NCBI GenBank assembly: GCA_020354555.1
Contig: CP070648.1
Coordinates: 1,774,668 to 1,818,804 of the forward strand
Origin: Armatimonadota bacterium
Lineage (GTDB): Bacteria; Armatimonadota; Hebobacteria; GCA-020354555; CP070648
DNA: 44,137 nucleotides
Reading direction: 5' to 3'
The position numbers and the translations under genes are program-made. Shown here piece after piece: positions 30,766 through 41,984 of this stretch. Numbering within the stretch: the stretch's first letter is position 1; every line of letters begins with the position of its first letter. The notes under the pieces are model-generated. The model ran no database searches, was not told where the DNA came from, and worked only from the letters and a program-made list of their open reading frames with translations.

Positions 30766-31629
30766 GTGACTAGCCATCACCCAACCGCCATAATCAATGA
30801 AGGCGCGCAACTCGGCGTTGATGTCAGTGTCGGCGCATACGCGATCATCAGCGGGCAGGCCGTGATCGGCGATCGGTGCCGGATCGGCCCACACGTGTTC
30901 ATTGACGGCCACACCCAGATCGGGGCAGACACCGAGATCCTGTTCTGCGCCGCACTGGGGTGCCCGCCGCAGGACCGCAAGTACAAGGGCGAGCCGACGT
31001 CGCTCATCATCGGCGAGCGCAACATCATACACGAGTACGTGACGATCCACCGCGGCAGCCGCGAGGGCACCGCGACCCGGGTGGGTGACGACAACATGAT
31101 CATGGCCTACAGCCACCTCGGCCACAACTGCGACGTCGGCTCCGGCGTCACCATGGTCAACAACGCGGTCGTGGCGGGGCACGTCGTGATCGAGGACCGG
31201 GCCATGATCAGCGGGCTGGTGGGGATCCACCAGTTTACTCGGATTGGCAAGCTGGCGATGGTGGCCGGGTATTCGAGGGTGGTGCAGGATGTCCCGCCTT
31301 TCATGATCGCCGAGGGGAGCCCGGCGCGCGTACGCGGGCTCAATGTGGTGGGCCTGCGGCGGGCGGGCGTTGACGCCGACGCGCGCAACCTGCTCAAATC
31401 CGCCTACCGCATTCTCTACCGCTCAGGGCTCAACCTGTCCCAGGCGCTGGATCACATCGCCGAGGAACTGGAGGAGACCCCGGAGCTGCAGTATCTCGTG
31501 GACTTCCTCAATCAGTTGAAGTTTGGCTACGTCGGCCGGCAGTTCGACCGGCCGCCGTCGGGGCCGCCGGTTGCGGCAGAACCGGCGGACGAGGAAGAGG
31601 CACTGGACGACGAGGCGGGGCCGAGTTGA
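30766..31629 (+). CDS. lpxA: Acyl-ACP-UDP-N-acetylglucosamine O-acyltransferase LpxA
   Basis: 287 residues starting at GTG with AGGTGA 4 nt upstream. Hexapeptide repeats form the left-handed beta helix (VSVGAY, AVIGDRCRIGPHVFIDGHTQIGADTEI onward). The catalytic base is H120 in YSHLGHNC. The C-terminal helical part has the LpxA signature RGLNVVGLRRAGVD. It adds the 3-O-acyl chain to UDP-GlcNAc, the first step of lipid A. A Pro- and acid-rich tail of about 25 residues (PADEEEALDDEAG) exceeds the usual 262-residue length and is probably disordered. It is followed by lpxB after 22 nt. Confidence 0.95.
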   Translation: MTSHHPTAIINEGAQLGVDVSVGAYAIISGQAVIGDRCRIGPHVFIDGHTQIGADTEILFCAALGCPPQDRKYKGEPTSLIIGERNIIHEYVTIHRGSREGTATRVGDDNMIMAYSHLGHNCDVGSGVTMVNNAVVAGHVVIEDRAMISGLVGIHQFTRIGKLAMVAGYSRVVQDVPPFMIAEGSPARVRGLNVVGLRRAGVDADARNLLKSAYRILYRSGLNLSQALDHIAEELEETPELQYLVDFLNQLKFGYVGRQFDRPPSGPPVAAEPADEEEALDDEAGPS

Positions 31630-31651
31630 CGCGCCGCCGGGAGCCGGCGTT

Positions 31652-32833
31652 ATGGAAGTGTTCATAGTCGCCGGTGAACCGTCGGGCGACCGCCAGGGCG
31701 GCGCGCTCGCGCAGGAGATTCGACGCCTCGAACCGCGCGTGAGGATTGCCGGGGTCGGCGGCCGCGCCATGGCAGCCGCGGGCGCGGCCCTGGTGTTCGA
31801 CAGTTCGGGCTGGGCCGCCATCGGGGTGGGGGAGGCGCTCAAGAAGATACCGGGCCTGTGGCTCAAGCAGCGGGCCATGGTGCGGCGGCTCCGCGAGCGG
31901 CCCCCGGCCGTGCTGATACTGATAGACTTCGGCGCATTCAACCTGCGGCTGGCAACAGCGATTCAAGGAACCGGCATCCCCATCCTGTACTACTTCCCTC
32001 CTCGCTCCTGGTCGCGAGATGCCCCAACCGGCGACCTGACTCAACTGGTGGATGCGATTGCGACGCCGTTTCCGTGGTCACAGCGGGTGCTGTCGGGCGG
32101 CAGAGCCCAGGTACGCTGGGTAGGTCATCCACTGGTGGAGCAGGTGCGGCCGGCATTATCGCCTGCGGCCGCGCGGGAGCGCTGGGCAATCGGCGAGGAT
32201 GAGCGCGTGGTCGCGGTCGCGCCCGGTAGCCGGGCGCAGGAGCTGCGTTACCTGCTGCCGGAACTCCTCGGCGCGGCGAGACTCCTCAACGCTGATGTTG
32301 CGGATCTGCGCTGGGTAGCAAGCGCGGCGCCCGGAGTGCGGGAGGAGCAGCTCCGGCAGAGGTTCGCACGGGTCGGCATAGAACCGATTGTCGTGGGCGG
32401 GCTGAACCCGGACCTGCTGCAGATCGCCGATCTCGCGCTCGTTACATCTGGGACGGCGACGCTCGAGTTGGCGATCCTGGAAGTGCCGATGGTCGTGGTG
32501 TACAAGGTGTCGCCGACGACGCGCTTGCAGTACGAGGTCGTGCGCAGAATGCGGGGGCCGCTCCGGTATATCGCGATGCCCAACGTGATCGCGCAGCGCG
32601 CCGTCGTGCCGGAACTAATCCAGGAGCGAGCCGGCGCGGCGTCAATCGCGGCCGAAGGGCGCAGGCTTCTCGACGACCGCGCCGCGGCCGAAGAGATACG
32701 CCGCGAGCTGCGCGCAGTCGTCGCGGAACTCGGACCGCCCGGCGCGTCCGCACGCACCGCGGCGATGGCGCTCGCGCTTGCCCGCCGCCAACCGATCGAA
32801 GATGGATGTATCGCGTTTCCTGTTCCTCAATAG
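31652..32833 (+). CDS. lpxB: Lipid-A-disaccharide synthase LpxB
   Basis: 393-residue GT19 enzyme that joins 2,3-diacylglucosamine-1-phosphate to UDP-2,3-diacylglucosamine on the inner membrane. Motifs are the N-terminal VFIVAGEPSGDRQGG, the central LILIDFGAFNLRLA and VRWVGHPLVE, then VAVAPGSRAQELRYLLP and LVTSGTATLELAI in the nucleotide-binding half. The usual VSPxVWAW segment reads YYFPPRSWSRDA, a divergent form. A GGGAG is 8 nt before the ATG, and this start begins exactly at the conserved first beta strand. The 3' end overlaps the following membrane methyltransferase gene by 32 nt. Confidence 0.93.
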   Translation: MEVFIVAGEPSGDRQGGALAQEIRRLEPRVRIAGVGGRAMAAAGAALVFDSSGWAAIGVGEALKKIPGLWLKQRAMVRRLRERPPAVLILIDFGAFNLRLATAIQGTGIPILYYFPPRSWSRDAPTGDLTQLVDAIATPFPWSQRVLSGGRAQVRWVGHPLVEQVRPALSPAAARERWAIGEDERVVAVAPGSRAQELRYLLPELLGAARLLNADVADLRWVASAAPGVREEQLRQRFARVGIEPIVVGGLNPDLLQIADLALVTSGTATLELAILEVPMVVVYKVSPTTRLQYEVVRRMRGPLRYIAMPNVIAQRAVVPELIQERAGAASIAAEGRRLLDDRAAAEEIRRELRAVVAELGPPGASARTAAMALALARRQPIEDGCIAFPVPQ

Positions 32834-33392
32834 GATGATTGCGACGCGGCTTGCGGCCGTCGTCATCGTTGCCGCTTTTTGGCTGCTCGACGTGCGGCCG
32901 GGCGTGGGCGCGCTGGCGGCCGGCACGCTGCTCGCGCTCGCCGGCGAGGCCCTTAGATTCTGGGCCGCCGGTCATTTGGTCAAGGACCAGGTACTCACCG
33001 TGACGGGTCCCTTCGCGCATACTCGGCACCCGCTGTACGTGGGCAGCACGCTCATCGGCATTGGGCTCTGCGTCGGCTCCCACATCTGGTGGTCCTACAT
33101 ATTGTTCGTCGTGGTCGTCGCAGCGTTCTACGTGCCGACGGCACTATACGAGGAGAAGCGGCTGACGCGCACGTACGGGGACGCGTACGTGCGCTACCGT
33201 GGAGCCGTGCCCGCACTAGGCGTCAGACTGAGCAAGTATCGCGCGCTCGCATCGGGTGCGAACGATGACTCGGACAGCGGGTTTGCCTGGCGGCGGATAC
33301 CGAGAAACCTGGAGCAGTACGCGGCTGCTTCGACGCTGCTCCTGCTCGCCGCGCTGTGGGCGAAGCTCGCCTTCGTCGGAGGTGGCGTGTGA
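32802..33392 (+). CDS. ICMT-family membrane methyltransferase, candidate lipid A phosphate methyltransferase (LmtA-like)
   Basis: 196 residues with about five hydrophobic helices. The SAM-binding ICMT/PEMT signature is present: GPFAHTRHPLYVG (69-81) and YEEKRLTRTYGDAYVRY with RGAVPAL after it (116-138). Eukaryotic ICMT methylates prenylcysteine, and bacterial homologues have varied targets. In Leptospira the family member LmtA methylates the 1-phosphate of lipid A. Here the gene overlaps lpxB by 32 nt and msbA by 4 nt (GTGA), placing it between synthesis of the lipid A disaccharide and its flippase, so a lipid A or precursor substrate is the natural inference. An ATG at 32835 is an alternative start. 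The C-terminal extra helix (175-194) is unusual. Confidence 0.82.
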   Translation: MDVSRFLFLNRMIATRLAAVVIVAAFWLLDVRPGVGALAAGTLLALAGEALRFWAAGHLVKDQVLTVTGPFAHTRHPLYVGSTLIGIGLCVGSHIWWSYILFVVVVAAFYVPTALYEEKRLTRTYGDAYVRYRGAVPALGVRLSKYRALASGANDDSDSGFAWRRIPRNLEQYAAASTLLLLAALWAKLAFVGGGV

Positions 33393-35215
33393 GCGATTTC
33401 TGGCGAGTGGTGCGTCTGGCGCTGCCCTACCGGTGGGTGGTCGCGGTCGTGATCCTGTGCATCGCGGTGGCGACGGTGGTGGACGCAGGGGTGTTTCCGG
33501 TGCTGGCAGGGCTGATCTTGGGCGGGCTGTTTCCGACCCACGGCGACATCGGAAAGCTGCGCGAGGTCCTCGCGCATGTGGGCCTGTTTCGCAGGATGGA
33601 GGCAGGGATCGGGGCCGACCCGCTGGTGTGGCTCCTGGTGCTGTGTGGGGCGATGATCGCGACCTACGCGGTGCGGGGTGCGGCGCTGTTTGGCTCGATG
33701 TATCTCGGCCAGTTCGTCGCGCAGCGGGTCATGTTTTCGCTGCGGGAGCGCATCTACTCACGAGTGCTGCGCCTATCGCTGGCGTTTCACGAGCGCCACG
33801 CGGTCGGCGAGCTGATGAGTCGAATGACCAACGATGTCATGCTCATCCAGAACATGGTGAGCACGCAGTTGGCGGACGCGATCGGCGTCGCCATCACGGT
33901 GATCGTGGGCGTCGGCCTGATGCTGGCGATAAGCTGGCAGCTGACCTTGCTGGCGCTGTTCTTGGTGCCGATAATGGCGTTGGTCATCGCGCGCGCGGGC
34001 AACCGGATGCGGCGCGCTCAGCTCAACGTTCAGCAGCGGCTGGCCAGCATCTCCGCACGCATCCAGGAACGATTGTACTCGATTCGTATCATACAGAGCT
34101 TCGCCCGCGAGCAGCACGAGGAGGAGCGGTTCGCCGAACTCAATACGAGTAACGTGGATGCCAACTTGCGCTCGGTGCGCATTGTCGCCTTGCTCGGGCC
34201 GCTGGTCGAATTCATCGGGGTTCTCGGCATGGTCGGCGGGATTGCCTTCGCCGGGTGGCAGGTGACGCGCGGCGTTCTCAGCGCCGATGATGTCGCCGCG
34301 TATCTGTTCGCGGTTCAGCGCGTCGGTCAGCGTTTCAGCAAGATCGGTCAGATCAACCTGTCGGTCCAGCAGGCTCTCGCGGCAGCCCGTCGCATCCTGG
34401 AGGTGGTGGACCAGGAGCCGACGGTCCGCGATGCCCCCGATGCTGTGCCGCTGCCGCGGGTTCGGGGCGACGTGCGATTCCGCGACGTGTCGTTCGCCTA
34501 TGGAGACGGGGGCGACGAGGCGCTGCGTGGTATTGAGGTGGAGGTGCAGCCCGGGGAGGTCATCGCGTTGGTGGGGCCGAGCGGGGCGGGCAAGACGACG
34601 CTGGTCAACCTGTTGCCGCGGTTCTACGACCCGACCTCGGGCGCGGTGGAGATTGACGGCTGTGATCTGCGCGGGGTGACGCTGAAATCATTGCGCGACC
34701 AGACGGGCATCGTGCCGCAGGAGACCATCCTGTTCGGCGGGAGCATCTACGACAACATCCGCTACGGCAAGATGTACGCGACGCCCGAAGAGGTGTTTGC
34801 GGCGGCGCGCGCAGCGAACGCGGAGGAATTCATTAGGGCAATGCCGCAGGGATATGAGTTCGACGTCGGCGAACGCGGCCTGCGCCTGTCCGGCGGACAG
34901 CGCCAGCGCATAGCGATCGCACGCGCGTTGCTCAAGGACCCCGCCATTCTGGTGCTCGACGAGGCGACGAGTTCGCTGGACATGGAGTCGGAGGCTCTGG
35001 TGCAGGACGCGCTCGAGCGCCTGATGAAGGGGCGCACGACGTTCATCATTGCCCATCGTCTCCCCACGGTGCGCAACGCCGATCGCATACTAGTGCTCGA
35101 TGAGGGTCGCATCGTCGAGCACGGGTCGCACGACGAGTTGGTTTCGCGCGGAGGGCTCTACGGCAGGTTGTACGAAATGCAGTTTCGCGATGCGCCCGCC
35201 CGCGAGCAGGGCTGA
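33389..35215 (+). CDS. msbA: Lipid A export ABC transporter MsbA
   Basis: 608-residue half-transporter with fused membrane and ATPase domains. Six transmembrane helices lie in residues 1-320, with the coupling-helix region SRMTNDVMLIQNMVSTQLADA. The nucleotide-binding domain has Walker A GPSGAGKTTLV (about 395-405), the Q-loop GIVPQETILF, signature LSGGQRQR, Walker B AILVLDEATSSLD and H-loop IIAHRLPTV. Located among lpx genes, it should flip lipid A-core across the inner membrane. The GTG start overlaps the methyltransferase stop codon by 4 nt, with GGAGGT just upstream. The length and motifs are typical. Confidence 0.93.
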   Translation: MSDFWRVVRLALPYRWVVAVVILCIAVATVVDAGVFPVLAGLILGGLFPTHGDIGKLREVLAHVGLFRRMEAGIGADPLVWLLVLCGAMIATYAVRGAALFGSMYLGQFVAQRVMFSLRERIYSRVLRLSLAFHERHAVGELMSRMTNDVMLIQNMVSTQLADAIGVAITVIVGVGLMLAISWQLTLLALFLVPIMALVIARAGNRMRRAQLNVQQRLASISARIQERLYSIRIIQSFAREQHEEERFAELNTSNVDANLRSVRIVALLGPLVEFIGVLGMVGGIAFAGWQVTRGVLSADDVAAYLFAVQRVGQRFSKIGQINLSVQQALAAARRILEVVDQEPTVRDAPDAVPLPRVRGDVRFRDVSFAYGDGGDEALRGIEVEVQPGEVIALVGPSGAGKTTLVNLLPRFYDPTSGAVEIDGCDLRGVTLKSLRDQTGIVPQETILFGGSIYDNIRYGKMYATPEEVFAAARAANAEEFIRAMPQGYEFDVGERGLRLSGGQRQRIAIARALLKDPAILVLDEATSSLDMESEALVQDALERLMKGRTTFIIAHRLPTVRNADRILVLDEGRIVEHGSHDELVSRGGLYGRLYEMQFRDAPAREQG

Positions 35216-35340
35216 CCCGCGTTGCTCATGACGCGTTCGGGCTCCGGCCGTCGTGGATGACTCCGACGAGCGACTTGAGGCGGACATGGAGCGGGCGCCG
35301 CCGAGCCGCGACCGGTATCAGCAGTGCAGGTTCGCCGATC

Positions 35341-37830
35341 ATGGCTGTGCAACACCCCGTAAGCAAACCATCGCCGACCATTCTGACCTGGCCGGCGCCG
35401 GCACCGGAGGCGCTGCCGGCGTTCGATTGGCGACTGCTCCTGTACAACCTGGCGCAGTTGTTGTTCGCGCCCCTGCTTGGCCTGTACGTGCTGTGGCGCA
35501 TCGTGGTGCGCGGGAAGCTGCGTGCGGGCTGGCGCGAGCGCCTCGGCTTTGTGCCGGCCGCCGGTCGTCATCGTCCCGGCGGGCCGCACATCTGGCTTCA
35601 CGCAGTCTCGGTCGGCGAGGTCGCCGCGGCCTCGTGCTTGCTCGACACCATCAAGCGCCGCATGCCCGCGGCGCGCGTCGTGCTCACGACGACCACCGCC
35701 ACCGGCCGCGAGATGGCGGAGAGAACGTGCCGCGGGGCGGATGCCGTCTTTTTCTTCCCTTTCGACTTGATGCCGGCGGTGGAACGAGCGTTCGATGCGA
35801 TGCGTCCGGATCTGTGCCTGCTGACCGAAAGCGAGTTATGGCCCAACTTCCTGTCGTCCGCTCGCCGGCGCGGTGTGCCGACGATGGTGGTGAATGGCCG
35901 CGTGTCGGACCGAACGTTGCGCCGCCTGCGCTTGCTGCGGCCGTTCTTCCCGTGGATCGTGCGCCGCGTTGACCGGTTCTGCATGCAGTCCGACGGGGAT
36001 GTCAGGCGTATCGTGCATTTCGGGGCCGATCCGCGGCGGACCGCCAACCTCGGCAATGTCAAGTTCGACCAGATCATCGCGCGCGTGCCTGCCGACGGGC
36101 GGGCGGAGCTTGCGCGGGAACTCGGCGTCGCCGGCGCGGAAACCGTCGTGCTCGCCGCCTCGACCCACGCGGGCGAGGAGAGGACTGCGCTGGACGCGTT
36201 TCACACTGTGCGACAAGTGGACCCCGCGGCGCGGCTGATCATCGCCCCGCGGCACATCGAGCGCGCCGCAGAGATCGAACAGGCGGTCGCCCAAGCCGGC
36301 CTACGGTCGCGGCGGCGCACCGACGGCCCGTCCGCGTCGGCTGAAGGGCCCAACACCGTCGTCATTCTGGACACCATCGGCGAGCTGGAGCGGGTGTACG
36401 CGGTGGCGACGGTTGCGTTCGTTGGGGGCAGCTTTGCGCCGATCGGCGGCCATAACGTTCTCCAGGCCGCGGCGCAGGGCGTCCCGTCTGTGTTCGGCCC
36501 GCACATGCACAATTTCCGCGACATTGCGGCGATCTTCCTCGACACCGGTCTCGGATTCCAGGTACAGCGGCCGGATGAGTTGGGGCCGAAGCTGGCGTGG
36601 CTGCTCGAAGAGCGCAGCCGCGTGCGCGCGATCGCTGACCGCTGTGCGGAGGTGCTCGCGCGGCACCGGGGCGCAGCCGATCGGTGCGTGACCGCGGCGG
36701 GGGAAATGCTCAGTTACCGGCCCCCGGGCGTAGAGGCGACGCCCACCAGGCAGTTCCACGCCTTTGCTCTAGGCGCGCTCTCCGGGGCCGACGGGAGTAA
36801 TGGGGCACGCCTGTTGGTGGCGCTCCTCACGCCGGCGTCAGTCCTGTACTGGCTGGGGCTCAAGGTGAACCGGCTGATGTATCGGATTGGGCTGGCGCGG
36901 GTGACCCGGTTGCCCGCGCGGGTGATTAGCATTGGTAACTTGACGACAGGCGGCACGGGGAAGACGTCGGCTGCGGCTGTGCTCGCCGCCGCGGCCGTCG
37001 AGAGCGGAAGCCGTCCGGCGATTCTCAGCCGCGGCTACGGCCGACGCGACCGGCAGCGAACCGCGGTGGTATCGAACGGCGCGCGGCTGCTCGCGAATCA
37101 TGTGACTGCCGGCGACGAGCCGTGCCTGCTGGCGAGGAAAGTAGCGGGCGCAGCTGTGCTCGTGGGCAAAGACCGCCGCGAAACCGGCCGCAAGGCGGTG
37201 GACGCCTTCGGCGCCGATGTGCTCATACTCGACGATGGATTTCAGTACTGGCGGCTGGCCAAGGACTACGAGATCGTTCTGGTTGACGCGTTGGCGCCGT
37301 TCGGGAGCGGGCTCCTGCTCCCGGCCGGGATTCTACGCGAGCCGGTAGACCACATCCGACGCGCGGATGCGGTGTGGATCAGCCACGCCGACCTCGCAGG
37401 CGCGAACCGCGTTGCAGCGATCCGGGCTCGGTTGTCGCGTTTCTTCGACGGGCGGATTATCGAGACGGTTCACCGGCCGGTCGAGTTACGGTCGCTGGAT
37501 GGAGGCGAAACGCTGGAACCTGCGGAATTGAGAGGTAAGCTCGTCGCGGCGCTGTCCGGGATAGGCAACCCGCTTGGATTCGAGTTGACCCTGGAGCGAC
37601 TTGGGGCGCACGCTCTGCCGGTGCGCTTTCCGGATCATCATCGCTTCACGCCTGAGGATTGCGCGAAGGTGGAGCAGTTCGCGCGGCGGCGCGGTGCGGT
37701 GATCGTGACGACCGAGAAGGATGCGGTGCGCCTCGACGTCGACGCTTTCTCAACGCCGGTGTGGATGCTTGAAGTGGCACTGGTTGCGGCGAAGGCGGGA
37801 GTCGCCCTGACGTCGGCGGTGGAGAGGTAG
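35341..37830 (+). CDS. waaA-lpxK: Single-chain fusion of Kdo transferase WaaA and lipid A 4'-kinase LpxK
   Basis: 829 residues in one uninterrupted frame. Residues about 30-455 are WaaA/KdtA (GT30): an N-terminal membrane helix (LLYNLAQLLFAPLLGLYVLWR), HAVSVGEVAAA, LTESELWPNFL, VNGRVSDRT, NLGNVKFD and GGSFAPIGGHNVLQAAAQGVP. Residues about 490-825 are LpxK: the anchor LTPASVLYWLGLKVNRLMYR, the P-loop IGNLTTGGTGKTS (about 529-541), LILDDGFQYWRL, LLPAGILREPVDHIRRADAVW, and the closing VTTEKDAVRL. LpxK phosphorylates the 4' position and WaaA then adds Kdo to that product, so the order of reactions in the chain is substrate-linked. A linker of about 35 residues joins them. The ATG at 35341 has only a weak ribosome site; one 28 codons earlier is possible. 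Confidence 0.93.
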   Translation: MAVQHPVSKPSPTILTWPAPAPEALPAFDWRLLLYNLAQLLFAPLLGLYVLWRIVVRGKLRAGWRERLGFVPAAGRHRPGGPHIWLHAVSVGEVAAASCLLDTIKRRMPAARVVLTTTTATGREMAERTCRGADAVFFFPFDLMPAVERAFDAMRPDLCLLTESELWPNFLSSARRRGVPTMVVNGRVSDRTLRRLRLLRPFFPWIVRRVDRFCMQSDGDVRRIVHFGADPRRTANLGNVKFDQIIARVPADGRAELARELGVAGAETVVLAASTHAGEERTALDAFHTVRQVDPAARLIIAPRHIERAAEIEQAVAQAGLRSRRRTDGPSASAEGPNTVVILDTIGELERVYAVATVAFVGGSFAPIGGHNVLQAAAQGVPSVFGPHMHNFRDIAAIFLDTGLGFQVQRPDELGPKLAWLLEERSRVRAIADRCAEVLARHRGAADRCVTAAGEMLSYRPPGVEATPTRQFHAFALGALSGADGSNGARLLVALLTPASVLYWLGLKVNRLMYRIGLARVTRLPARVISIGNLTTGGTGKTSAAAVLAAAAVESGSRPAILSRGYGRRDRQRTAVVSNGARLLANHVTAGDEPCLLARKVAGAAVLVGKDRRETGRKAVDAFGADVLILDDGFQYWRLAKDYEIVLVDALAPFGSGLLLPAGILREPVDHIRRADAVWISHADLAGANRVAAIRARLSRFFDGRIIETVHRPVELRSLDGGETLEPAELRGKLVAALSGIGNPLGFELTLERLGAHALPVRFPDHHRFTPEDCAKVEQFARRRGAVIVTTEKDAVRLDVDAFSTPVWMLEVALVAAKAGVALTSAVER

Positions 37831-37835
37831 ATCGG

Positions 37836-38768
37836 GTGCGAGAGCTTCGCTGGCGACAAATACAGCAGTTCGTCGGTCGCATCATGCTGCTCTTTCTGGC
37901 GCGCTACGCGCACCTCATCCCGCGCGCCATCCTGTATCCGCTGGCGCGCGCGCTCGGCTCGTCGGTCATGGCGATCTCACCGCGCCACCGACGCATCGTC
38001 ATGAGCAACCTGCGCCTGGCCTTCGGCGCCGAGAAATCCGAGGCCGAACTCCGGGTCATCGCACGGCGCTTCTATCAGAACTTTGCGAAAGGCCTGTTCG
38101 AGTTCTTACGCATGCCGGCGATGACGCGCGAGGAAATCAAGGCGACCGCTCGACTGGAGGGCGAAGAGCATCTCCAGCAGGCTATGGCGGCCGGCCGGGG
38201 TGCAATTCTCATCAGCGCCCACTACGGGAACTGGGAGACGGCCGCTGCTTATTTCGCGATCTCGGGTTATGGCCCGCTCAACGCCATTGCACGGAGCCAG
38301 CGCGATCAAGAGGTGACGGAATTGCTGACCAGCGTGCGCACCTATGGCGGGCTGCGGCTGGTGCCGCGCGAAGGCGCAATCCGCGAATGCACTGACCGTC
38401 TGGCGCACAATGAGTTGGTCGGGATTATGATTGACCAGAATGCAGGCGACCACGGGGTGTTCGTGGAGTTCTTCGGCAAGTTGGCGTCAACCGCGGCGGG
38501 CGCGGCGGTCCTGGCAATCCGCACGGAGTCTCCGGTGATCGCGGCCTTCTGTGTCCGGCAGCCCGACGAAACCCAGAAGTGCATCATCCTCCCACCCCTG
38601 AGGATTCAACGCACGGGCGACGTCGAGAGTGACGTTGTGGCGAATACCGCAGTCTTCACGAGAATCGTCGAGCAGGCCGTTCGCGAGCACCCGGATCATT
38701 GGTTCTGGCTGCATCGGCGCTGGAAGGCGCGGCCGCCGTGGGAGCGCGGGAAATCCGAATGGGACTGA
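37836..38768 (+). CDS. LpxL/HtrB-type lipid A lauroyl-acyltransferase family protein
   Basis: 310 residues with a GTG start 5 nt after the WaaA-LpxK stop codon. An N-terminal membrane helix (IMLLFLARYAHLIPRAILYPL) precedes the acyltransferase domain. The catalytic HX4E motif is H129-E134 in ISAHYGNWE, followed by LIDQ-type IMIDQNAGDHGVFVEFFG, and the C-terminal HPDHWFWLHRRWK is diagnostic of the LpxL/LpxM family. It adds a secondary acyl chain to Kdo-lipid A, so it naturally follows the WaaA-LpxK product. Whether it acts at the LpxL or LpxM position cannot be told from sequence. Confidence 0.92.
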   Translation: MRELRWRQIQQFVGRIMLLFLARYAHLIPRAILYPLARALGSSVMAISPRHRRIVMSNLRLAFGAEKSEAELRVIARRFYQNFAKGLFEFLRMPAMTREEIKATARLEGEEHLQQAMAAGRGAILISAHYGNWETAAAYFAISGYGPLNAIARSQRDQEVTELLTSVRTYGGLRLVPREGAIRECTDRLAHNELVGIMIDQNAGDHGVFVEFFGKLASTAAGAAVLAIRTESPVIAAFCVRQPDETQKCIILPPLRIQRTGDVESDVVANTAVFTRIVEQAVREHPDHWFWLHRRWKARPPWERGKSEWD

Positions 38769-38795
38769 GCGGTCCGCCGACCGGTGTCACGACCT

Positions 38796-39785
38796 ATGGC
38801 GTTTTCGCGCATTCTCATAGTCAAGCTCAGCTCGCTGGGCGACGTCATCCACTCGCTGCCGGTGGCTGGTGCGGTGCGACGCCGGTTTTCCGACGCGGAG
38901 ATCTCGTGGCTGGTAGGGCCGGCATCGGCGAGCGTGGTGGGCATGTGCCGGCACGTAGATCGAGTCGTCGTGTGGGAGCCGGGCAGACGCAGTCGGCTCG
39001 CGCTGGCCTCGGATCTGCGTGGGGTTCACGCGCGGGTCGCCTTGGACATGCAGGGGCTCTTGCGCACCGCCGGACTTGCGTGGCTCAGCGGCGCGCGATG
39101 GCGCATCGGCTTCCGCTCTTTCCAGGAGGGCGGGTTCGTGCTCTGCAACCTGCGCGTCGTGCCGCCCCGCACCGATATTCACGCGGTTGATGCATATCGC
39201 GAGTTCGGTCGGCGCCTCGGTGCCGACGATGGATCGCCTGACTTCGGCCTCGCGGTGCCGCGGTGGGCGCAACGGCGCGCGGCGGCGCTGGTTCCCGCCG
39301 GCCGGGGCGGGCGGAGGATCGCCCTTCTGCCGGGCACGCGTTGGCCGACGAAGAAATGGCCGGCGCGGCACTTCGCGGCGCTGGCGAGAGACCTAGACGA
39401 ACTGGGCGCGCAGTCCGTCGTGCTGGGCGATCGCGACGACCGGCTAGACGGCTCCACGATCGCGTCGGCTGCTCCTCACTCCGCGGTTGACCTGACCGGG
39501 CGGACGTCCCTGGTGGAGTCGGCTGCGGTCATCGCTCACTGCGACCTGGCGGTGGGCAACGACTCCGGCTCGATGCATCTCGCAGCCGCGCTGGGCACAC
39601 CAGTGGTGGCGCTGTTCGGGCCGACCGACCCGGTGCGGACCGGGCCGTATGGGGCGGGGCACGCCGTGCTGGAAGCACCGGTCCCGTGCGTGCGATGCCG
39701 GCGCCGCAGGTGTCGTTTCCCCTGCATGGAGAAGTTGCGCCCGGAGATTGTGCTGCAGGCGGTGCGGACACGCCTCGGCTGGTAA
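38796..39785 (+). CDS. GT9-family LPS heptosyltransferase (WaaC/WaaF/RfaQ-like)
   Basis: 329 residues. RILIVKLSSLGDVIHSLPVA is the GT9 opening motif, with the GDV-H segment. DMQGLLRTAGLAWLSG and the sugar-nucleotide region LLPGTRWPTKKWPARHF follow, then LAVGNDSGSMHLAAALGTP and VALFGPTDPVRTGPYG complete the family. It should transfer a heptose (or similar sugar) from an ADP- or GDP-donor to Kdo or to the first core heptose, in the cytoplasm. The C-terminus has a basic Cys/Arg-rich stretch (VRCRRRRCRFPCM), common at this place. The GTG at 38784 is an alternative start; neither has a strong ribosome site. Confidence 0.9.
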   Translation: MAFSRILIVKLSSLGDVIHSLPVAGAVRRRFSDAEISWLVGPASASVVGMCRHVDRVVVWEPGRRSRLALASDLRGVHARVALDMQGLLRTAGLAWLSGARWRIGFRSFQEGGFVLCNLRVVPPRTDIHAVDAYREFGRRLGADDGSPDFGLAVPRWAQRRAAALVPAGRGGRRIALLPGTRWPTKKWPARHFAALARDLDELGAQSVVLGDRDDRLDGSTIASAAPHSAVDLTGRTSLVESAAVIAHCDLAVGNDSGSMHLAAALGTPVVALFGPTDPVRTGPYGAGHAVLEAPVPCVRCRRRRCRFPCMEKLRPEIVLQAVRTRLGW

Positions 39786-39863: not shown

Positions 39864-41984
39864 ATGAGCGCACTCACCATACTCCATCTGCTGCCGTGGC
39901 TGAACTACGGGGGCGTCGAGAAGTACGTCATCGGCCTCAGCGCGGCCCTGCAGCGGCGCGGTCATCGCTGCATCATCGTCAGCAGCGGCGGAAAGCTGGA
40001 AGGAGAGGCGGACGCCGCTGGCATCCGCCACATTCCACTACACATCCGCGGACGGCGCGGGCTTTCCGCCGTCCCCAGACTCGCTGCAATCATTGACCGC
40101 GAGCACGTTGACCTGCTCGCCGCGCACAACTGGACCGCGGGCGCCGTTGGCTTCCTGGCGAGCCGGCTGGCGCGTATCCCGTACTGCTTCACGGTTCATG
40201 GGATGCGCGAGCCGATCCAGCGTTTCCTCGTGTACTATTGGGGAGAGAAGGTGATCACGGTGAGCGCGGCCGGCCGCGACCACCTGATACGCAAGTTCCA
40301 TCTCCCGCCCCAGCGCGTCGTGACCAGCGTGATCGGAGTTGATGCCGAGAGATTCCGCCCGGGCCCTCCGGCGTTGTCGCTCGTTCATGAACTCGGCCTC
40401 GACCGCGCGGCGCCCAAGATCGTGCACGTCAGCCGTTTCAGTCGAGGCAAGGGCGAGGTCGCGCTGCGTTTGATCGAGGCGGCGCGGGGGATCGAGGGCA
40501 CTGCCCCCGGCTTCCAGGCAATCATCGCCGGTGTTGGAGCACTGGCTGATGAGATTGCAGCTCGCGCCGACGACGCCAACCGTGGCCTCGGCCGCCGCGC
40601 GTTTGTGTTTGTCGGCGGCCGGTCCGATGTGCCGGAGCTGATGAGCCTAGCCGACGTCGTCGTAGGGACGGCTACGGTCGCGTTGGAAGCGATGGCGTGC
40701 GGCAAGCCGGTCGTCGCGGCGGGCAAGGCGGGTTTTGTGGGTGTTGTAACGCCGGAGACCCTTGCGGCGGCGAATGCGACGTGCTTCGGCGATCACGCAG
40801 CCCCTGAACGGGTTACGTTCGACAACCTTGCAGGAGCCATCGGAGGCGTGCTTTCCGATGCCAGCAGGGGCGAGGAACTCCGCGAGTTCAGCAGGCGAGC
40901 GGTACTGCGTTCGTTCACGATGGGCCATGCCGCGGAGAGCGTCGAGCGCGTGTACGGTGACGTGTTGTCGGGGAGCAGGCCTGTGCGCCGCATCGCGGCA
41001 TTCCACCTCAACCAGGTCGGCGACTTGCTCTTCTCTCTGCCGACGCTCGCTGCGCTGCGGCGGCGGTTCCCGCACGCGGAGATCACCAGCGTACTGCGGC
41101 CGAATCTGGCCGAGTTGATGCAGGAGTGCCCGTTCATAGACAACGTCATCCTTCGTCGGGGCGGCGTCGCGCGCGAAATCCGCGTCGCGCAAGAGCTGCG
41201 GCGCCGCGGCGTTGACGTTGCGGTCGCCTTCTCGCAGTCCTCGTCAACGGCGTTGCAGACATTCGTCTGCGGGGCGCGCACGCGGATCGGTTTCGTGGAT
41301 GCGGACACGGGCTGGCTGTTGAATCGGCGGGTGCACGTACGCGGCCTGCCGTGGCCGGGGAAGCTCGGGCGACTGGCCATATGCCTCGGCGCGGATGCAC
41401 CGGGCAGTAGTTATGTTGGTATGCTGCGCATCCCATCGGCTGTGCGCAAGCGCGCTGGCGCGCTGCTGCAAGGCCACGGGGTCGAGTCTGCCGCAAGGCT
41501 TGCGGTTATCGCCCCTGCCGCATCCGGCCGGCAGCGATACAAGGGGTGGTACCCGGCGCGGTTCGCGGAGGTCGGTGACTATCTGCACGAGCGGTGGCGC
41601 ACGACGGTCGTGCTGGTTGGCGCGCCGGGCGAAGCGGTCGAGGTCAGCCGGGTCGCAAGCGCGATGTCGGCGCGGGCGGTAAACCTGACAGGCGAAACAA
41701 GCACCGGTGAACTGGCGGCCATCCTCGAGCGCGCCGACCTGCTCGTGGGTGTGGACAGCGGCCCGGTTCACCTTGCCGCCGCGATGGGCACTCCCGTGGT
41801 GGTTCTATTCGGGCCGACTGACCCATCGCGCACCGCGCCGCAGGGAGAGGGACACGAAGTGGTGACGGCGGGGCTCGATTGCGGTCCCTGCACGAAGCCC
41901 TGCGCGACTATGGAGTGCATGAAGGCGATAACGGTGGAACTGGTGACTGCGGCGGTGGACAAGGTCTTCGCGCGGGCGAAGTAG
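39864..41984 (+). CDS. Two-domain fusion: GT4 glycosyltransferase and GT9 heptosyltransferase
   Basis: 706 residues in one frame. Residues 1-368 are a GT4 enzyme: LTILHLLPWLNYGGVEKYV, YCFTVHGMREPIQR, VITVSAAGRDHLI, IGVDAERFRP, KIVHVSRFSRGKGEV, and the donor-site ADVVVGTATVALEAMACGKP. Residues about 374-706 are a second GT9 heptosyltransferase: IAAFHLNQVGDLLFSLPTL, IAPAASGRQRYKGWYPARF, LLVGVDSGPVHLAAAMGTP and VVLFGPTDPSRTAPQG. The fusion would couple two successive sugar additions in the LPS core. Both domains keep their family motifs and no frameshift is needed to read through. It follows the single-domain GT9 gene by 78 nt. Confidence 0.9.
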   Translation: MSALTILHLLPWLNYGGVEKYVIGLSAALQRRGHRCIIVSSGGKLEGEADAAGIRHIPLHIRGRRGLSAVPRLAAIIDREHVDLLAAHNWTAGAVGFLASRLARIPYCFTVHGMREPIQRFLVYYWGEKVITVSAAGRDHLIRKFHLPPQRVVTSVIGVDAERFRPGPPALSLVHELGLDRAAPKIVHVSRFSRGKGEVALRLIEAARGIEGTAPGFQAIIAGVGALADEIAARADDANRGLGRRAFVFVGGRSDVPELMSLADVVVGTATVALEAMACGKPVVAAGKAGFVGVVTPETLAAANATCFGDHAAPERVTFDNLAGAIGGVLSDASRGEELREFSRRAVLRSFTMGHAAESVERVYGDVLSGSRPVRRIAAFHLNQVGDLLFSLPTLAALRRRFPHAEITSVLRPNLAELMQECPFIDNVILRRGGVAREIRVAQELRRRGVDVAVAFSQSSSTALQTFVCGARTRIGFVDADTGWLLNRRVHVRGLPWPGKLGRLAICLGADAPGSSYVGMLRIPSAVRKRAGALLQGHGVESAARLAVIAPAASGRQRYKGWYPARFAEVGDYLHERWRTTVVLVGAPGEAVEVSRVASAMSARAVNLTGETSTGELAAILERADLLVGVDSGPVHLAAAMGTPVVVLFGPTDPSRTAPQGEGHEVVTAGLDCGPCTKPCATMECMKAITVELVTAAVDKVFARAK

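Follow-up and report, generated by a model that had tools for sequence, protein, structure and literature searches.

A single gene encoding WaaA and LpxK in a family of Armatimonadota, a putative bifunctional enzyme of lipid A biosynthesis

The genes of the Kdo transferase WaaA (KdtA) and of the tetraacyldisaccharide 4'-kinase LpxK are often found together as a waaA-lpxK cluster (PMC3087551). The product of LpxK is the acceptor of WaaA, as was correctly stated in the preliminary description of the locus analysed here, and the 4'-phosphate is important for the E. coli WaaA (PMC6286764). Both enzymes and the gene pair are already known. A search of the open-access literature found no description of a WaaA-LpxK fusion, and the fused form may have been noticed earlier in subscription papers or protein databases. 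The window analysed is a stretch of 44,137 nucleotides (contig CP070648.1, positions 1,774,668 to 1,818,804 of the forward strand) from an Armatimonadota bacterium whose assembly consists of a single contig of 4.88 Mb. Its phylum is borne out by loci of genomes assigned to the same phylum or class, whose ORF lengths and domain scores equal those of named Armatimonadota records (L009 and L045, L027 and L051, L029 and L049, L008 and L071).

Organization of the fused gene and its surroundings

The WaaA-LpxK fusion is genuine. As the preliminary description had claimed, one unbroken frame (Table 1) holds a complete WaaA of family GT30 followed by a complete LpxK, both judged by Pfam, NCBIfam and catalytic residues, with one substitution in WaaA (E276 to Q). 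The Pfam matches were Glycos_transf_N (PF04413, aa 63-244, E 1.5e-57, 194.5 bits with a cut-off of 23.9) and LpxK (PF02606, E 5.4e-86, 289.1 bits with a cut-off of 27), and the E-values of the two full-length family matches rule out chance as their source. Five NCBIfam WaaA models cover aa 32/33-457 with E-values down to 4.5e-97, all scoring below their own curated cut-offs, which are narrow equivalog cut-offs; the LpxK equivalog model TIGR00682 reached 205.9 bits, above its cut-off of 91.95. A search of solved-structure sequences with the fused protein returned A. aeolicus LpxK (4ehw/4ehx) and WaaA (2xci). In the whole source genome the frame is the sole LpxK match and also the sole GT30 match. 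The start ATG (MAVQ) is backed by MAVQ at the matching place of the ortholog in G001, the other genome of the family that was compared; the longer start at 35257 given by the ORF caller was without support.

Table 1. Features of the fused gene and of neighbouring genes in the window
Feature	Coordinates	Strand	Residues, position or length	Basis
lpxB	31523..32833	+		Pfam PF02684
MsbA-like ABC exporter	33356..35215	+		Pfam PF00664 and PF00005
Fused waaA-lpxK gene	35341..37830	+	829 codons and stop	Pfam/NCBIfam matches; unbroken ortholog in G001
Hydrophobic N-terminal helix of WaaA half	35428..35511	+	aa 30-57	AlphaFold2 helix H30-57
WaaA / GT30 Kdo transferase	35437..36708	+	aa 33-456	Pfam, NCBIfam, structure-sequence alignment, fold match 2xci
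Predicted flexible inter-domain linker	36712..36747	+	~aa 458-469, ~12 residues	Lowest pLDDT between the domains
LpxK tetraacyldisaccharide 4'-kinase	36748..37827	+	aa 470-829	Pfam aa 494-816; fold match 4ehx/4ehy
N-terminal helix of LpxK half	36799..36885	+	aa 487-515	AlphaFold2
LpxL-type lipid A acyltransferase	37836..38768	+	Five bases past the fused-gene stop	Pfam PF03279
GT9 heptosyltransferase-type enzyme	38784..39785	+		Pfam PF01075

Residues important for WaaA and LpxK catalysis were taken from the literature (PMC6286764) and placed in the fused protein via alignments to the A. aeolicus structures. In the WaaA half, E31, E98, K162 and R212 of the A. aeolicus enzyme are all present, as E93, E163, K241 and R304, and the CMP ribose-binding E276 is conservatively replaced by Q375. 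Since many relatives also have glutamine at this position (17 of 43 aligned rows), the glutamate is no strictly defining feature of WaaA. In the LpxK half, K51/T52 of the P-loop, D99, E100 and D138/D139 correspond to K541/T542, D592, E593 and D631/D632, and H261 and K280 to H766 and K793.

Two confident domains were predicted by AlphaFold2 for the fused protein (mean pLDDT 92.3, pTM 0.72), and in Foldseek comparisons the LpxK half matched 4ehy with a TM-score of 0.89 by target length and the WaaA half matched 2xci with 0.70-0.72. The linker between them has a pLDDT of ~50, falling below 50 at aa 464-469. Because of this low-confidence segment and the pTM value, the placement of the domains relative to each other is not fixed by the model. 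The membrane anchors ascribed to both halves in the preliminary description correspond to the hydrophobic helix at the start of each and are the usual membrane-associating segments of such enzymes, not additions.

Besides the neighbours listed in Table 1, the run of genes around the fused gene includes lpxC, an lpxA-like acyltransferase gene and glycosyltransferase genes, while kdsB, for synthesis of the Kdo donor, sits elsewhere in the source genome. A second fusion was observed in this run, where a 706-codon frame (39864-41984, plus strand) combines a GT4-type glycosyltransferase with a following GT9 heptosyltransferase according to Pfam. Its ortholog in G001 (L140:13435-14994) lacks residues ~118-355 of the window protein, so that the GT4 N-terminal lobe directly joins GT9, which may be an internal deletion or a new arrangement.

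Conservation in the family and recurrence of the fusion

The comparison within the family was made with one genome, G001, which belongs to a different genus and was assembled separately. It carries the fusion as a stop-free single frame as well, with 67% identity to the fused protein over residues 1-823 and an identical gene order around it. When the two orthologs were aligned, neither a linker indel nor ambiguous bases were found, and dN is well below dS; NG86 dN/dS ratios were ~0.18 for WaaA, ~0.34 for the linker and ~0.20 for LpxK, values that are rough since dS exceeds 1. The preliminary description had named, as a possible refutation of the fusion, evidence that close relatives always have two genes. 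This is not so within the family, but it holds for those other families of the class in which both were resolved (f2 and f3), where waaA and lpxK are separate and adjoining.

The same separate arrangement, with the genes in that order and often overlapping or one stop apart, was found in nearly all of the phylum, and in 18 Armatimonadota genomes the two genes lie in the same frame, separated by exactly one stop. Only 4 of 291 Armatimonadota genomes (G000, G001, G241 and G242) have both domains in a frame free of stops. The latter two belong to family f20, and a third species of their genus, G240, has two genes. Long LpxK-bearing frames in seven further genomes (G064, G065, G066, G289, G247, G055 and G029) were rejected as fusions, WaaA lying in another frame. 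In Bacillota, the phylum of Megasphaera, 249 genomes were sampled; 19 had a match and 6 of these 19 carry a fusion. The earlier remark that this is no standard architecture is partly right: the fusion is rare in its own phylum and recurs outside. Every frame listed as spanning both genes in the 247 Acidobacteriota genomes has an internal stop, and among 398 Pseudomonadota genomes searched at E 1e-85 the sole stop-free case (L138 of G925) was rejected because its frame crosses a run of N.

Two other kinds of long WaaA frame were observed in these searches. A 784-codon frame of the Bacillota genome G725 (L135:215-2566, minus strand) unites WaaA (GT30) with a GT9 heptosyltransferase, and six Acidobacteriota genomes (G536, G326, G352, G392, G442 and G455) have their WaaA match inside an open frame of ~809-1033 codons of which only the WaaA part gave a match; these frames are possibly further WaaA fusions or merely long open frames.

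A total of 102 loci with both domains were collected by similarity to the fused protein, a sample biased toward such loci, and comprised 14 fused loci (from ten distinct genomes), 85 with waaA adjacent to and ahead of lpxK and 3 with lpxK first. The preliminary description had noted that the order of the domains is opposite to that of the reactions. Reading this order as a mechanistic clue was rejected, since 85 of 88 unfused loci with both genes have waaA first and the fusion simply inherited the operon order.

On the WaaA tree the state 'fused' needs three changes (5-95% range of bootstrap trees 3-3), and likewise on a quick LpxK tree, the nearest unfused relatives of the source gene being weakly resolved on these trees. 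Fused genes are rare and each of their groups is tight, so that three separate gains are the simplest reading of the trees. The spread of one fusion by horizontal transfer was rejected in view of the three changes on both trees and of the Bacillota and f20 fusions, which stand beside unfused relatives of their own lineages. Genes set apart by a single stop are easily fused, and this, together with the WaaA-heptosyltransferase frame of Bacillota, argues that the recurrence may be due in part to opportunity alone.

Proposed function and alternative readings

It is very probable that an ancestral operon pair was merged in the ancestor of the family to give one bifunctional WaaA-LpxK protein. A single frame would have been left after loss of the stop of waaA and of the start of lpxK in the ancestor of this one small Armatimonadota family. 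The C-terminal LpxK half would then place the 4' phosphate on tetraacyl-disaccharide-1-phosphate to give lipid IVA, to which the N-terminal WaaA half would transfer Kdo from CMP-Kdo. Each half would probably be held at the inner face of the cytoplasmic membrane by the hydrophobic helix at its N-terminus, and a flexible linker of ~12 residues that presumably stays uncleaved would join the two. In this form two consecutive enzymes would be made in equal amounts and in one place, the modest benefits expected of the fusion, with a possible kinetic advantage. Taken from sequence and predicted structure, an ordinary bifunctional LpxK/WaaA enzyme is the most likely identity of the fused protein: both families are full-length, the folds are known and confidently predicted, catalytic residues are found in both halves and no other copy of either gene exists in the genome. 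The lipid A genes nearby, the conservation in G001, the separate pairs in relatives and the three changes on the trees point the same way. An in-frame ATG conserved at codon 456 and the replacement of E276 by glutamine count against it.

The preliminary description had suggested that fusion would channel the intermediate. True channelling, with the fused active sites turned toward each other and lipid IVA handed on from LpxK to WaaA before it equilibrates with the membrane pool, is considered unlikely here. In its favour are the consecutive reactions, at least three separate origins of the fusion and the importance of the 4'-phosphate for the E. coli WaaA (PMC6286764). However, no fixed inter-domain arrangement is predicted by AlphaFold2 and both enzymes act on lipid at the membrane surface. 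The intermediate, lipid IVA, is a membrane lipid and diffuses in the bilayer. Recurrence is moreover expected from adjacency alone, the genes often being one stop apart, and in Bacillota a WaaA frame has also been joined to a heptosyltransferase. It is likewise unlikely that direct hand-over within this repeatedly evolved, putatively bifunctional enzyme keeps the lipid A precursor from building up free in the membrane; if it did, the recurrence of the fusion would naturally point to LpxK and WaaA working as a complex even when separate.

Less probable still is that one gene gives two proteins, a free LpxK being released besides the long product either by a start at the codon-456 ATG or by proteolysis of the linker, in which case the fusion would be of little consequence for the cell. 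The ATG is in frame in both family members and the linker is predicted to be flexible, but codon 456 lies inside the WaaA C-terminal helix (H445-457), ahead of the low-confidence linker. In the source gene a purine-rich stretch abuts this ATG, closer than a good Shine-Dalgarno sequence would lie, and in G001 the bases ahead of it are GCCGCCGCCGAG. Around aa 468-470 of the fused frame, where the start of LpxK is expected, no start codon was found. That an assembly or sequencing artefact took out a stop or shifted the frame, an objection foreseen in the preliminary description, is highly improbable, for although most relatives have two genes that often overlap in different frames, a separately assembled genome of another genus keeps the unbroken frame with no linker indel, no ambiguous bases and dN well below dS.

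With the bifunctional enzyme as the preferred reading, the joining of two essential consecutive LPS enzymes on at least three occasions suggests that their togetherness is tolerated and perhaps useful. The fused gene is a ready-made single construct for probing the cooperation of LpxK and WaaA at the membrane. For genome annotation it is a warning: where lpxK or waaA seems to be missing, it may be hidden inside one gene.

Comparison with known systems

The WaaA half shares with A. aeolicus WaaA (KdtA; 2xci/2xcu) the full-length GT-B fold, the equivalents of E31, E98, K162 and R212 and the hydrophobic N-terminal helix; it differs in having LpxK at its C-terminus and a glutamine as the equivalent of E276. 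With A. aeolicus LpxK (4ehx/4ehy/4lkv) the second half has in common the fold, the P-loop, the D99/H261 pair and the equivalents of E100 and D138/D139, whereas it lies behind WaaA and lacks a separate start codon close to where one would be expected. Compared with the waaA-lpxK gene pair (PMC3087551), the genes, their order and the setting in an LPS gene cluster are equal, but one frame replaces two genes. The fusions of Armatimonadota f20/g134 (L115 and L116) and of Bacillota (L129-L134) have the same domain order and similar size (frames of 812-856 codons), and are distinguished from the source fusion by separate origins on both trees and dissimilar linkers. The LpxC-FabZ fused gene (PMC3087551) likewise represents merged neighbours of a lipid A cluster, but it joins other enzymes, and FabZ is not the next step of lipid A synthesis.
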